From Neelides folsomi (Eukaryota > Arthropoda > Collembola > Neelipleona > Neelidae), in NCBI GenBank assembly GCA_034687125.1, contig JAQGBZ010000235.1, positions 34,654 to 98,653 on the forward strand: a stretch of 64,000 nt of DNA. Direction: 5' to 3'. This document shows positions 24,741 through 64,000 of the stretch, piece by piece. Below the pieces are notes generated by a model that had not been told where the DNA came from, did not search any database, and was given only the letters and a program-made list of their open reading frames with translations. Position 1 is the stretch's first letter. Each line of letters opens with the position of its first letter. Both the position numbers and the translations under genes were made by a program.

Positions 24741-27700
24741 GTTAAATGGCGGGAATTTATGAAAAGGCGAATTTTAAATAATTTGACTTTCTTTTGGGTT
24801 GTGTGGCGACTGGTGAGATAAGGATTGATTAAAGTGGATAATTAATGTCTTTTGGATGTGACCAAAGGAGGGTGAATAAATGATGTGTGAGGGGATACGT
24901 CGTTCCTTTAAGTCTCCCCTTGACCTTCCTCTCTCACACTCCTTGGATTACCCGACACGCGTCGAGGTCCCTTGGACCAAAACCCAAAAAGACTTAATTT
25001 GTTAAAGGATCAACTTCCCTCTTTTAATCCAAAACCCTCATGAGCCAATAACGACTTTTCCATACGTTCGATCACGAAGTCAAAAAACCCGATAAGCCCT
25101 TCATAATCTCCCTTTCAAAATATCACAAGATTCAAATTGTCGCGCTTTGAGCCAACAATTATTCAAACGTCGTTTCCTAAGCACCCGGCTTTACACATCA
25201 ACATTAAACTTCCCATTTCCAGCAAATTCAACATTTAGAATTAAGGAATAAATCAAAATCAAAAAATCGACATTAGCTTAATTACACTTAAACTACAAAT
25301 TAAATCAAAAATTTAAGCAATTTCATTTAATTCTAAAAAAATTAAGAAATCAGGCTATTAAATAATATTTGCAATAATTTAAATAAATTAGCGAGAATGA
25401 TTAATAAATAAAATTATTGCTAATATAATAATTTTATTAATTTAAACCTCATTTCTATTCCAATGGCAATATTCCGTGTTTTTAGAAATTTATGAATTGA
25501 AATGTAAGAAAGTCGTTGAAGATGGGGAAAGGGAGAATTAAGATGGGGAAGATAAAAAAGAGGAAATTGAGCTGATTTGATTGTGGGAGTTGGACGGTCG
25601 TCCGTGGAGACGTCCATGGAGACGTCGCTCGGGTCGGGGGGATGATGGATGGCTGCAAAAACTGTTGATCTTTCCTCTCCCACATGATGAATCTGGGCAT
25701 TATGGGAGTTAATCTGGTGGATGCGGAGGGCGATAAAGCCAATCTCGGCCCCGTCGCGTCTTCACCCCCTTTAAATGCCTCTCGTACTAAACGTCCCCCT
25801 CTTCATCACTCCAATCACAAAACACTCATTTAAATACAACCCCTTTTCAATTCATTTTTTCAATTCATTTAAATACTCTTCTTTAATTCTCTTCTTAAAA
25901 CACTTTACATATAAGCCTTTCTATATAAAATTCAATAAAATAATAATATTAATACAAATTATAGGTACCATAAGTATCTTTCTTTTTTAAATTAACAATC
26001 GTATAAAAAAGAAAGATACTTATGGCCCATCCTGTACATGTACATGTAATTTTTTGATTTTTCTCTGAATGAGTTTAAAATGTAAATCTGTAAATGGTTA
26101 AATGGACGATTTAAAAAAAAAGAGTAAAATTTAATGTGGAGGTTCGTGCGGGTTTGGTGGAGGGTGTGATGAATTTAAAAAAAAGCTGTTTTTGTGCACG
26201 GGTTTATTCATAAGGGGGAGAGCGGATTGTTGGGAGATTTGTAAAGACGGCCGCGTGCCGTCCGGTCCACGTCCTCCAACTCCCGGTAATGAAAGGGCGG
26301 ATTAGGCAAACTGGATCGGAATACCCGGGTCACGGTCGGGAGAGCAAACCCTTGAAAACCGCAAGTCCGGTCCTTCTCACGTTTCATCCCCCTCACTCCC
26401 TTCATTCCGACCATGATTTACACCCCCAAAAAGGATCGGTTTCAAATGAACAAATCATCTTTGACCTCCGCATTCAAATGAATCAAATGACATGTGAAGT
26501 GATTCAATAAACCCACCATTTAACACAACCCGTATTTACATTCATACAAATACATTCACTCAAATACATTTGTTCACACAAAATCAAACATTATTTGCAA
26601 ACTTCATAAATAAATAAATTCGTTTATTTAGCATTAACTTTACATTTGTATTTATATTATCAAAATGTTTTTTTACTATAAATTTTTTTATCAAATTCAT
26701 AATAATGCAATTATGAATTTTTTATCAAAAATCAAAAGATTACGAATTTTTTTAATAACGGAATGATTTAAAAAAATTTAATAACGTAATTTTAATAGAG
26801 AAAAATTTGGAATGTCTTTTGTAATAAAAAAAAGCTAATTTTTGGTTGTATGACGCAATTGGGGCATTTGGGTGTATAAAAGTGTAATGTGAAAGATGAT
26901 GGATGGGTCGTGAAGAGAAAAGGGAATTTCGGCTGGTGTTTTGTGTGTCGTCGTCGTCGTCGTGGCGGACGTGTGTTTGAAAGTGATGCTGTCAGTTTGG
27001 ATGACTGACGTTGGTCTGAAGGGGAACTTCAAATCCTCCGTCTGACTCCCAAAGATATGCCAGAACCCAAATCTCGCATGGACACCATTGATAATATTAT
27101 TTAACACCCCAGAGAGCTTAAACTTACAAAGCCCGACTTGAAACAATTTCACATTATTTACCACGGTAATTGAACTAATTGAACATTTATGGGCATCTAC
27201 CATGGTAACTTATTGTTACTTCCCACTTGACATATTTATATAAATTTATCAATCTATAACCATAGCAATTGATATTAATTTAACTTTAAATTTAACAACT
27301 TTAATAAATTTTACTTTATATGGTTAATATAAGTTTAACAATTTTAAAACATAGTTAAATGTGTAGTTAATTGTTTAGATAAAAATGTAGTTAAATATGA
27401 AGTTAAATGTTCAGTTATAAAAAAAATATTCAAATGAGCGCGAGTTTTAAAAAAATTCAAATTGGTTCATTTTCCACATAAATCATTTGATTTATCCCTA
27501 TCAAAACGTGTTGTTAAGAGACGATCTAGTTGAAGTTGTTAAAGATTGTGAGATTAATCAAAATGTAATTCGAATCCTTATAAAGTGTGTAAAACGGCGA
27601 GGAAATTCACACCGTGGATCAGAAAAAAAGGATTGATTTGGGTAAAGGGGCGGAGTTGGGCGTAAAAAACCAAAAGGGCCTTTTGTATTGTTTTCCCTCA

Positions 27701-62300: not shown

Positions 62301-64000
62301 TCTTCTGTCTCCTTTTAGACTCAAAATCATACATACAAATACACATATTTAAAACCACACGGTTTTTGAGGGTTATTTAAAATTATAGATTTTTCTAAAT
62401 CGCGGGTTTTAACATATTTATAGCGTTTAAATACGAATATAAATTATTGAGTATTTAATCTGGGCCTAAATTGGGTTAAAGTGATATGTTATGCGTGAGA
62501 ATTATTGATAGTTATTTTGAATTGGTTTGTATAGGTTTGGCTAGGTTAGAAAAAATATGAAATTAGAGAGCGGGGAATTTAAATTAAAGAGGAATTAAAA
62601 AGGGATTATTCCAATAATGGGTTTATTGGTTTGCGTTTGTTGTGAGACGGGAGATGAATTTGAGAAGGTTAAAGTTGAGTTGATCAAATTAATTAGCCAA
62701 ATTCAATTCCATTTTTCATTGTAAGTTGATGGAGCCGAAATGATTTAATAATTGAGTTTCGTTCCGCCGTTCAATCCATTCCCCTTGTTCTACAAAACTC
62801 GCTCAAACATTTATGAAACTCCGGGACATTTTTTATTCAAAGGGGAAATTAAACCTTTCAAATTTATACTTTCAACGTTTTCTTTCAAACTTTGACCAAC
62901 TTTCTTGTCAAATAAATAATTTATAAATCTTCAATCAAAACTCGATTAAAAATCCATACAAACCCCTATACAAAATTGTATTTAAATTCCTATACAAAAT
63001 GACTAAATCATATTCTAAATCAAATTCAAAATTTTATTCAAAATGTGCTGCCAAATTTAAAATAAAATTATTAAAATTTTGGCAATATTCGCAGAATTTA
63101 GCTGAAGGAATTTTAACTAAATATAAGAGGGAAGTTTGAAAAGAAGTTCGATTTTCGTTTGAGTGTAGTTGTGGGAGTGCGGAAGTGTGTAGCTGATGAG
63201 TCTCGGCGGGTCGTCCCTTATATTTGAATGAGATGGGAATGGGAGATAGTCGAGGGATGTGATGAGATTCCAAGAAGGAGGCGCCCGACTATTTCTGATT
63301 CCCCCCTTGCAAGATCGCAATCTCCGACTTTATCTCCAATGGAACATCTCCCCATGCAATGAACTCTCAAAGCTTCACTCCGAACGGCGAACGAACTCAT
63401 TTTCATATTTTTTTCATCCTCCTATTATTAACCTCATACAATATTATCTCAACCCGATCTAGAATATTTTAAATTAATTTAAATCATCACTCAGGCTCAA
63501 ATGCAAACCAATCCAATACAATCCATCACAAGCCAAATTTAAATATTTACTATTTTAACAATGGAGAATTTAACTTGTGAATTTAACTGAATTTAACTTT
63601 AACTGATTGTGAATTTAACTTTAACTAAATTTAATTTAGCGATTTTTATTCCACAAATTGGCACATGAAATAGTGTGATGATTCAAATAGCGCGATTATG
63701 GCGAGATTAAGTTAGGATTTTAATTAAACATGGAATGTAAGATTTAATTAAAATATTTAAAGGATAATTAAAATTTTAGCGAATTTTGTTGAATGAGCCG
63801 TGAAATGGTGAAATGATTCAAATGTTGGGAGTTGGGGGCTTGGAAAGGCTAATGAAGAGAAATGAAGGAATTGTTGGAGTTGAAGGATGTTCATGATGAT
63901 TCTTCTTCAAATCTCCCATTGTCATTGTCATTAGCTATCCATTTACATTCCCATTACTCACCCTGGCCCTTTCACATGTCGGAAACAAAATGAACCCCAT
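59339..64000. other. GATA intron 3, incomplete, with skew arches
   Basis: Begins with the donor CTT|GTAAGC and continues to the window end without a second zinc-finger exon. Flip points near 59,705; 60,260; 60,830; 61,855; 62,190; 62,760; 63,295; 63,890. Hand count: 63,121-63,240 has G41/C11 and 63,301-63,420 has G14/C40. A GT microsatellite lies at about 62,134-62,150. Confidence 0.65.

Follow-up and report, generated by a model that had tools for sequence, protein, structure and literature searches.

One-way arches of G-rich then C-rich DNA around developmental-regulator genes of the collembolan Neelides folsomi

What makes one end of a contig pass, dozens of times and always in the same order, from G-rich into C-rich DNA? 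The question is raised by a 64,000-bp stretch of Neelides folsomi (hereafter the window), which is the right-hand end of a 98,653-bp contig (C235:34654-98653; the end of the window is the end of the contig) in an assembly of 75.1 Mb and 840 contigs. An initial annotation had described, in positions 24741-64000, a chain of units each running from a G-rich arm through a sharp flip into a C-rich arm; such a unit is called an arch here. We found the chain to be real and polarised, and arches to recur in non-coding DNA around developmental-regulator genes; the mechanism that we tentatively favour is recurrent DNA breakage at the arch centres. The concentration at developmental regulators, the lack of arch order in the exons tested, the occurrence on other contigs and a companion signal in the spacing of A-tracts go beyond what had been annotated. 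The two parts of the window compared were as follows.

24741-64000, no strand: arch domain, 54-56 consecutive G-rich to C-rich units with a median spacing of about 0.6 kb, reaching the contig end
1-24740, no strand: arch-free flank serving as internal control, containing an ankyrin-repeat open reading frame (ORF) and a gamma-glutamyltranspeptidase exon

Flips were called with arms of ±150 bp and a score of at least 40, and the null was a set of 40 dinucleotide-preserving shuffles. The arch domain contained 54 G-to-C flips, compared with a shuffle mean of 0.5 (maximum, 2), and the flank contained 2 (shuffle mean, 0.08). At the same threshold 32 reverse flips, C to G, were found in the domain, since the alternation of units requires reversals between them. 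A threshold of 35 gave 56 units with a median spacing of 592 bp. Counts of G minus C in 50-bp bins oscillated along the domain (autocorrelation -0.36 at 250 bp and +0.24 at 550 bp), and the cross-correlation of skew with GC content was antisymmetric (+0.42 at +100 bp, -0.45 at -150 bp), from which the order G-rich, GC peak, C-rich follows. In positions 1-24740 neither the oscillation nor the antisymmetric relation was seen.

The claim that no unit stands in the reverse order was borne out by a three-state hidden Markov model (HMM), trained on the domain from random starts with no order imposed, which learned a neutral state (C 0.12, G 0.11), a C-rich state (C 0.31, G 0.10) and a G-rich state (G 0.30, C 0.08). 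The transitions form a one-way cycle, neutral to G-rich to C-rich: neutral went to G with probability 1.00 and to C with 0.00, and G went to C with 1.00 and to neutral with 0.00. The log-likelihood of the forward order minus that of its mirror was +235 nats in the domain and -9 nats in the flank. The AT-rich spacer that had been described after every unit was found after only part of them, as the C state was left for neutral in 0.49 of exits and directly for G in 0.51, and 27 of the 86 C-to-G passages on the decoded path were direct, without a neutral spacer. Ten individual arches, all without strand, are given with their centres and scores.

25583-25882: arch, centre 25732/25733, score 71
30703-31002: arch, centre 30852/30853, score 86, the strongest
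31489-31788: arch, centre 31638/31639, score 85
33197-33496: arch, centre 33346/33347, score 75
37883-38182: arch, centre about 38032, score 72
40967-41266: arch, centre 41116/41117, score 77
52609-52908: arch, centre 52758/52759, score 71
57699-57998: arch, centre about 57848, score 77
58279-58578: arch, centre about 58428, score 75
63134-63433: arch, centre 63283/63284, score 74

The anatomy of an arch was derived from the arches of the window and from a pooled profile of 121 of 127 arches from seven loci, six being dropped as too near the end of a piece. Within the window G rose from about 0.12 to 0.34 on the left side while C stayed near 0.10, and the right side was the mirror of this; in the pooled arches, read on the outward strand, C rose from 0.13 to 0.36 toward the centre and G stayed at 0.08-0.14 over the inner 300 bp. 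A and T fell nearly equally toward the centre, A being slightly commoner than T in the outer arm of the outward strand, and the window alone agreed; on the inward strand A was 0.295 and T 0.307. Of the annotated succession "G+T then C+A", therefore, the G and C parts stand, while TA skew is near 0, its maximum of about +0.11 being in the outer left arm. Both GC content and the absolute excess of G or C climb away from the spacer and are maximal at the arch centre: GC was 0.44 at G-to-C flips versus 0.25 at C-to-G flips, and the base excess within 25 bp of the flip was 0.28 versus 0.15. The fraction of the major base near the flip, that is, the fractional steepness of the skew, was about equal for the two kinds of flip, so that shape alone cannot decide between an arch-centred and a spacer-centred process. 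A cumulative-skew caller gave a median spacing of 662 bp over 136 intervals, with a coefficient of variation of 0.43. Within 90 bp of the called centres, which were chosen for contrast, skew went from about +0.4 to +0.5 to -0.4 to -0.5. Judged against simulations that included patchiness, 10-90% flip widths of about 65 bp or less fitted best (chi-square 12-16 over 8 bins) and widths of at least 110 bp fitted worse (19 at best). Flips sharp to 1 bp, which an initial fit had suggested, were abandoned, the simulations showing that fit to be biased by G/C patchiness and the better comparison favouring widths up to about 65 bp. It was also noticed that TpA was depleted in the inner arms of the window arches (0.53-0.6) and near 0.9 in the spacers, and that minority G pairs in the C-rich arms of the pooled set were clustered, with a small rise near 10 bp.

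Three further statements of the initial annotation, that the units are neither exons nor palindromes and share no sequence, held up. Coding period-3 power exceeded 3 in one of 52 arches, located in the GATA-gene exon described below (power in windows of that exon, 1.4-4.5), and was at most 3 in the other 51, with a median of 0.81; none of the nine ORFs scanned, out of 66 ORFs of at least 80 aa in the domain, had a Pfam match. RNA or DNA hairpins were rejected because pairing between the arms was barely above that of arm-wise shuffles (mean z -0.44 on both strands, SE 0.16); the extra pairing is minor, not zero. Among 6- to 8-mers no strong shared motif was found, a few words such as TATGTA and TAAAGT being at 1.6-1.8 times expectation in both sets. 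CpG was at expectation in the window arches, and CpG methylation is thus no evident driver. The words AATAAA, TATA and initiator (TCAGT) had no consistent polarity about the arches, and 5′ splice-site-like words (GTGAG, GTAAG) were scarce on the outward strand.

The domain encloses a GATA-factor gene, with the following parts.

55738-56379, plus strand: open exon of the GATA-factor gene, its third codon positions without significant arch order
59204-59305, plus strand: GATA zinc finger (Pfam PF00320, E 1.2e-15), taken to be a further exon of that gene

A Pfam scan of exon 55738-56379 gave no match; we take it to belong to the GATA family from its motifs (FPPTPPKD, and an end in ...KNRSSAGKE), its position and the zinc finger downstream. 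Three of the 56 centres (55827, 56168 and 59257) fall inside exon sequence of this gene, and for these the composition of the protein may be the source.

A comparison with the rest of the genome, which the initial annotation had proposed, showed that the pattern is not confined to the window and that it is lower in arbitrary samples. Profile searches of the genome gave 93 homeodomain and 3 GATA-finger matches. On loci outside the training set the HMM favoured forward over mirror order by 140 nats in 30 kb of contig C20 and by 93 nats in 20 kb of contig C633; arch loci scored 4.7-6.0 nats/kb (6.0 being the window domain), versus -0.6 to 3.0 in ten arbitrary 10-kb samples. C633 contains the second GATA match. 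C20 carries eight well-separated homeodomain matches, all on the same strand, and we read it as a Hox cluster; the homeodomain of one of its open frames (292 aa) had an engrailed entry as its best solved-structure match, followed by Pdx1, Sex combs reduced, Fushi tarazu and Antennapedia. The arch score, S, was 0.83, 0.76 and 0.69 in three adjacent pieces of C20, 0.66 between two C20 homeodomains, and 0.90 and 0.78 in C633. On other contigs, seven pieces lying 1-2 kb from a homeodomain gave 0.89, 0.79, 0.46, 0.46, 0.21, 0.09 and -0.20. The score was 0.25 in 3 kb at the third GATA match (C204), and in the ten arbitrary samples (contigs C1 to C700) it ranged from -0.07 to 0.47.

Ten developmental pieces exceeded the ten arbitrary ones both in S (one-sided p 0.023) and in log-likelihood per kb (one-sided p 0.044), under a grouping made post hoc: one C20 piece (L007) came from the arbitrary list and was moved out once homeodomains were found, it and its two neighbours were excluded from the test, C204 and the rest of the window's own contig were also omitted, and the arbitrary contigs C1 and C60 themselves carry homeodomain matches at least 30 kb from the piece sampled. 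The arbitrary samples still leaned forward (Wilcoxon p 0.014), and of 17 loci beyond the strong arch set, 14 had more GC at their G-to-C flips than at their C-to-G flips, 1 was tied and 2 had less. For these two reasons the arch process seems to be genome-wide, concentrated at certain loci.

At synonymous sites of the three exons tested no arch order was found beyond synonymous-shuffle nulls: the third-position forward-minus-mirror value was -0.21 for the GATA exon (211 codons; p 0.30), -0.86 for the Hox-class exon (292 codons; p 0.73) and -1.64 for a large homeodomain exon (1478 codons; p 0.75), the last having a slight excess of third-position skew patchiness (1.33 vs 1.09, p 0.075). Arch DNA subsampled at every third base gave means of +1.5 to +2.3 when 292 sites were drawn, with values from -2.4 to 4.9, and of +8.7 to +11.4 when 1478 were drawn, with values from 0.3 to 18.0, so that only the longest exon lies clearly outside, and as its flanks lie beyond the sample its setting in an arch domain is not established. 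The non-coding DNA on the two sides of the GATA exon scored 7.3 and 7.2 nats/kb, versus -0.7 inside the exon, and the 724 bp adjoining the Hox-class exon scored +6.1 nats. Third-position GC was 0.73 in the GATA exon, 0.48-0.49 in the two homeodomain-gene exons, and 0.13, 0.26 and 0.37 in three ORFs of positions 1-24740. The large homeodomain exon (C13:276801-281234) is very long and uninterrupted, with three homeodomain matches and, by eye, zinc-finger-like stretches; 1478 codons lie in the piece and the open frame is 1984 aa.

The arch loci share a second signal. In 24741-64000, C20:10001-40000 and C633:1-20000, AA/TT dinucleotides had excess power at 9.25-9.75 bp and at 12-12.5 bp, with a notch at 10.5 bp. 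Relative to order-3 Markov simulations, z at 9.5 bp was 8.5, 6.0 and 5.5, and at 10.5 bp -2.2, -3.0 and -2.3, in the window, C20 and C633, respectively; at 9.5 bp the flank had z -0.7 and the pooled controls 1.4, the controls reaching 4.6 at 8.5 bp. The pattern survived masking of tandem repeats, in a comparison made without positions 1-24740. The A-tract score was correlated with the arch score (rho 0.70 over 36 pieces, some of them adjacent; p 3.9e-5 over the 28 pieces outside the domain). A-tracts so placed out of register would prevent coherent bending of the DNA. A superhelical (80-bp) reading of the spectrum was discarded, as no signal returned near 80 bp and high-pass filtering created artefacts near 20 and 42 bp.

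The explanation that we place first, tentatively, is that DNA breaks repeatedly at arch centres and then undergoes resection, strand-asymmetric mutation and GC-biased repair, so that an arch would be the long-term footprint of a process starting at its centre and mirrored outward over about 150-300 bp. DNA breakage, presumably meiotic, would recur at short accessible sites packed along developmental-regulator loci, and each side of a break would be resected 5′ to 3′, leaving single strands with their 3′ ends toward the centre. On those strands C would be mutated away, or G preferentially kept in repair, and GC-biased gene conversion would lift GC near the break. Once at equilibrium, the strand with its 3′ end toward the centre would be G-rich, namely the top strand on the left and the bottom strand on the right, and the top strand would therefore read G-rich, flip, C-rich; AT-rich spacers would be DNA distant from any break site.

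We place the process at the centre and not in the spacer because GC content and base excess are highest at the flip and fall off on either side. In human meiosis, as described in excerpts of PMC7615360, the forward strand is single-stranded to the left of the break and the 3′-ended strand loses C on each side; if the left side lost C and the right side lost G, the skew would have the sign seen in arches. In an equilibrium model with assumed background rates (kappa 2, spacer-like composition), two parameters, C>N asymmetry and GC-biased conversion, left a misfit of 0.12 millinat per site, and W>G (A/T-to-G) gain on the inward strand left 0.00, the conversion bias being free and fitted near zero. 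The misfit was 47 millinat per site without asymmetry, 2.1 with C>G, 14.6 with A>G and 26.7 with C>N + A>N; C-to-T deamination alone was discarded, as C>T with GC bias misfitted by 5.5. On the inward strand C is depleted relative to G and GC is raised at the centre, and gene families of breakage and interhomologue repair are present, with one genome profile match each to TP6A_N (Spo11 family), Mnd1 (reading through one stop codon) and TBPIP (Hop2 family). We also count for breakage the elevated third-position GC of the GATA and homeodomain exons and the skewed composition of the arms without strong motifs. According to parts of PMC13186367, there are stable hotspots in open chromatin among eukaryotes whose breaks PRDM9 does not direct.

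Several observations weigh against breakage. The same portions of PMC13186367 report that some animals without PRDM9 have lost hotspots. The excerpts of PMC7615360 describe human hotspots whose central ±100 bp lacks strand asymmetry, with some mutation types peaking 700-800 bp off centre, and a spectrum that includes A>N besides C>N with asymmetry over about 2 kb. Arch asymmetry, unlike this, is full right up to the flip, a mismatch that led us to lower our confidence in breakage slightly; A is not depleted on the inward strand, in line with the poor fit of combined C>N + A>N; and the asymmetry of an arch spans a few hundred bp. Because the flip is narrow, break zones would have to be tens of bp wide. 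The strengths of the left and right arms of one arch were weakly correlated (rho 0.17-0.20), and those across a spacer no worse (0.07-0.30), a comparison that does not tell arch-centred from spacer-centred units. The A-tract spacing is not predicted by breakage. The missing arch order at synonymous sites of the tested exons also counts against it; this is not decisive, since the nearest centres outside the GATA exon are some 350 bp or more away from it.

Nearly as likely as breakage is that arches and spacers are maintained by selection as an open, regulator-rich chromatin array at developmental genes, in which AT-rich spacers would act as nucleosome barriers, the GC-richer arches would be occupied by a few nucleosomes or by factors, and coherent bending would be precluded by keeping A-tracts out of helical register. 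Such an array would explain the loci, the pattern being strongest in developmental-regulator non-coding DNA, the gap at the tested exons and the A-tract spectrum, which was found in three arch loci, was robust to repeat masking and followed the arch score, but it would not explain the difference between strands: no reason is known to us why nucleosomes should require one strand to carry the G and the other the C. Nor does it sit well with the lack of a strong motif among 6- to 8-mers, with centre-to-centre spacings that show no nucleosomal quantisation (n = 136, best R 0.11 at 150 bp, p 0.84), or with low arch scores in three of the seven pieces near homeodomains on other contigs and at the third GATA match. 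A precedent exists in the human AT-rich nucleosome barriers (mean 153 bp) with GC-encoded flanking nucleosomes, which the consulted portions of PMC4966569 present as under selection and void of break hotspots. A wider and more doubtful proposition is that developmental-regulator loci are a distinct non-coding regime, with a selected, motif-free physical code of semi-regular polarised arches every 0.5-0.7 kb and A-tracts out of register, which would mark such loci in chromatin and be absent from their exons.

Two forms of divergent transcription are unlikely, and to about the same degree. In one, transcription would start in the AT-rich spacers and G-rich non-template strands would run inward to meet at the arch centres; its sign fits the G (and T) excess of non-template strands reported in parts of PMC10030826 and the C|TSS|G inverted skew (TSS, transcription start site) at divergent promoters of mammalian transcriptional regulators in excerpts of PMC3882496. 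However, a process originating in the spacer should have its greatest effect beside it, and GC and base excess instead rise away from the spacer and peak where transcripts would collide; moreover, the flip width implies that transcripts would need to end no more than tens of bp from each centre, and the polarity of AATAAA, TATA and TCAGT is inconsistent. In the other, enhancer-like transcription would start at arch centres, with C-rich sense strands running outward. The profile is indeed focused on the centre. Unstable enhancer transcripts are poor in 5′ splice-site-like words, and GTGAG and GTAAG are scarce on the outward strand, a scarcity for which composition alone may account; however, promoter and poly(A)-signal polarity is again inconsistent, and the polarity of the arches is opposite to the mammalian transcription-start skew given in the same excerpts of PMC3882496.

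The initial annotation had likened the chain to replication N-domains and proposed replication or transcription initiation in the spacers, neither of which is upheld. In N-domains, whose units are far above the kilobase scale, skew jumps upward at origins, and the arches share with them a skew that falls within units and rises between them. The arches differ in being far smaller (0.6 kb), concentrated at certain loci and GC-rich at the flip. Closely spaced replication initiation is very improbable, as the spacing is about 0.6 kb, the tested exons lack arch order, forks would need to halt no more than tens of bp from the centre, and GC and base excess peak at this supposed termination point and not beside the spacer. 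Chance, assembly artefact or exons on alternating strands is least credible of all, being contradicted by the shuffles, by untrained loci on other contigs, by period-3 power of at most 3 in 51 of 52 arches and by the lack of a Pfam match in the nine ORFs scanned out of 66.

The arch pattern was not found described in the open-access literature on skew, hotspots, developmental genes, enhancers, A-tracts and nucleosomes, in the portions of it at hand (including PMC9001825 and PMC6813358); the "GC skew" in excerpts of PMC7403616 is rising GC content and not strand skew. Three known systems come near. 1) Human meiotic double-strand-break hotspots with GC-biased gene conversion (PMC7615360, excerpts) share mirror asymmetry about a point and loss of C on the strand whose 3′ end is toward the break; arches, by comparison, are seen as base composition and not as rare variants, extend about 0.3 kb per side versus 2 kb, are asymmetric to the centre, are tiled at about 0.6 kb, and show no loss of A relative to T. 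2) GC-skewed divergent promoters of transcriptional regulators (PMC3882496, in part) share a skew reversal over hundreds of bp near developmental-regulator genes, but their flip is C to G, at the transcription start and in large CpG islands, whereas in arches the GC-rich flip is G to C, the C-to-G flip lies in AT-rich DNA and many units tile non-coding DNA. 3) Nucleosome-inhibiting energy barriers (PMC4966569, in part) likewise alternate, AT-rich, with GC-richer stretches of a few hundred bp; the text at hand describes no strand skew for them, and arch spacing, measured from centre to centre, showed no nucleosomal quantisation.

If breakage is the cause, as we tentatively prefer, the mechanism is a known one and the form of its trace is new, and base composition alone would yield a map of recombination initiation at near-site resolution, with its sites in developmental loci. 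If a selected chromatin code is the cause, developmental loci would be recognisable from sequence by a strand-polarised, motif-free pattern. On either reading, the order and phase relations are quantitative and testable in any related genome.

In the arch-free part of the window, the ankyrin-repeat open frame (3079-6684, plus strand; 1201 aa) is built from a 99-bp unit repeated about 31 times with 85% matches and has a third-position GC of 0.13, and the gamma-glutamyltranspeptidase exon lies at 9759-10277 on the minus strand. Weak tandem repeats made up 13-15% of the arch loci (24741-64000, C20 and C633) and 4.5% of the pooled controls; in positions 1-24740 they made up 22%, about half of it from the ankyrin array.

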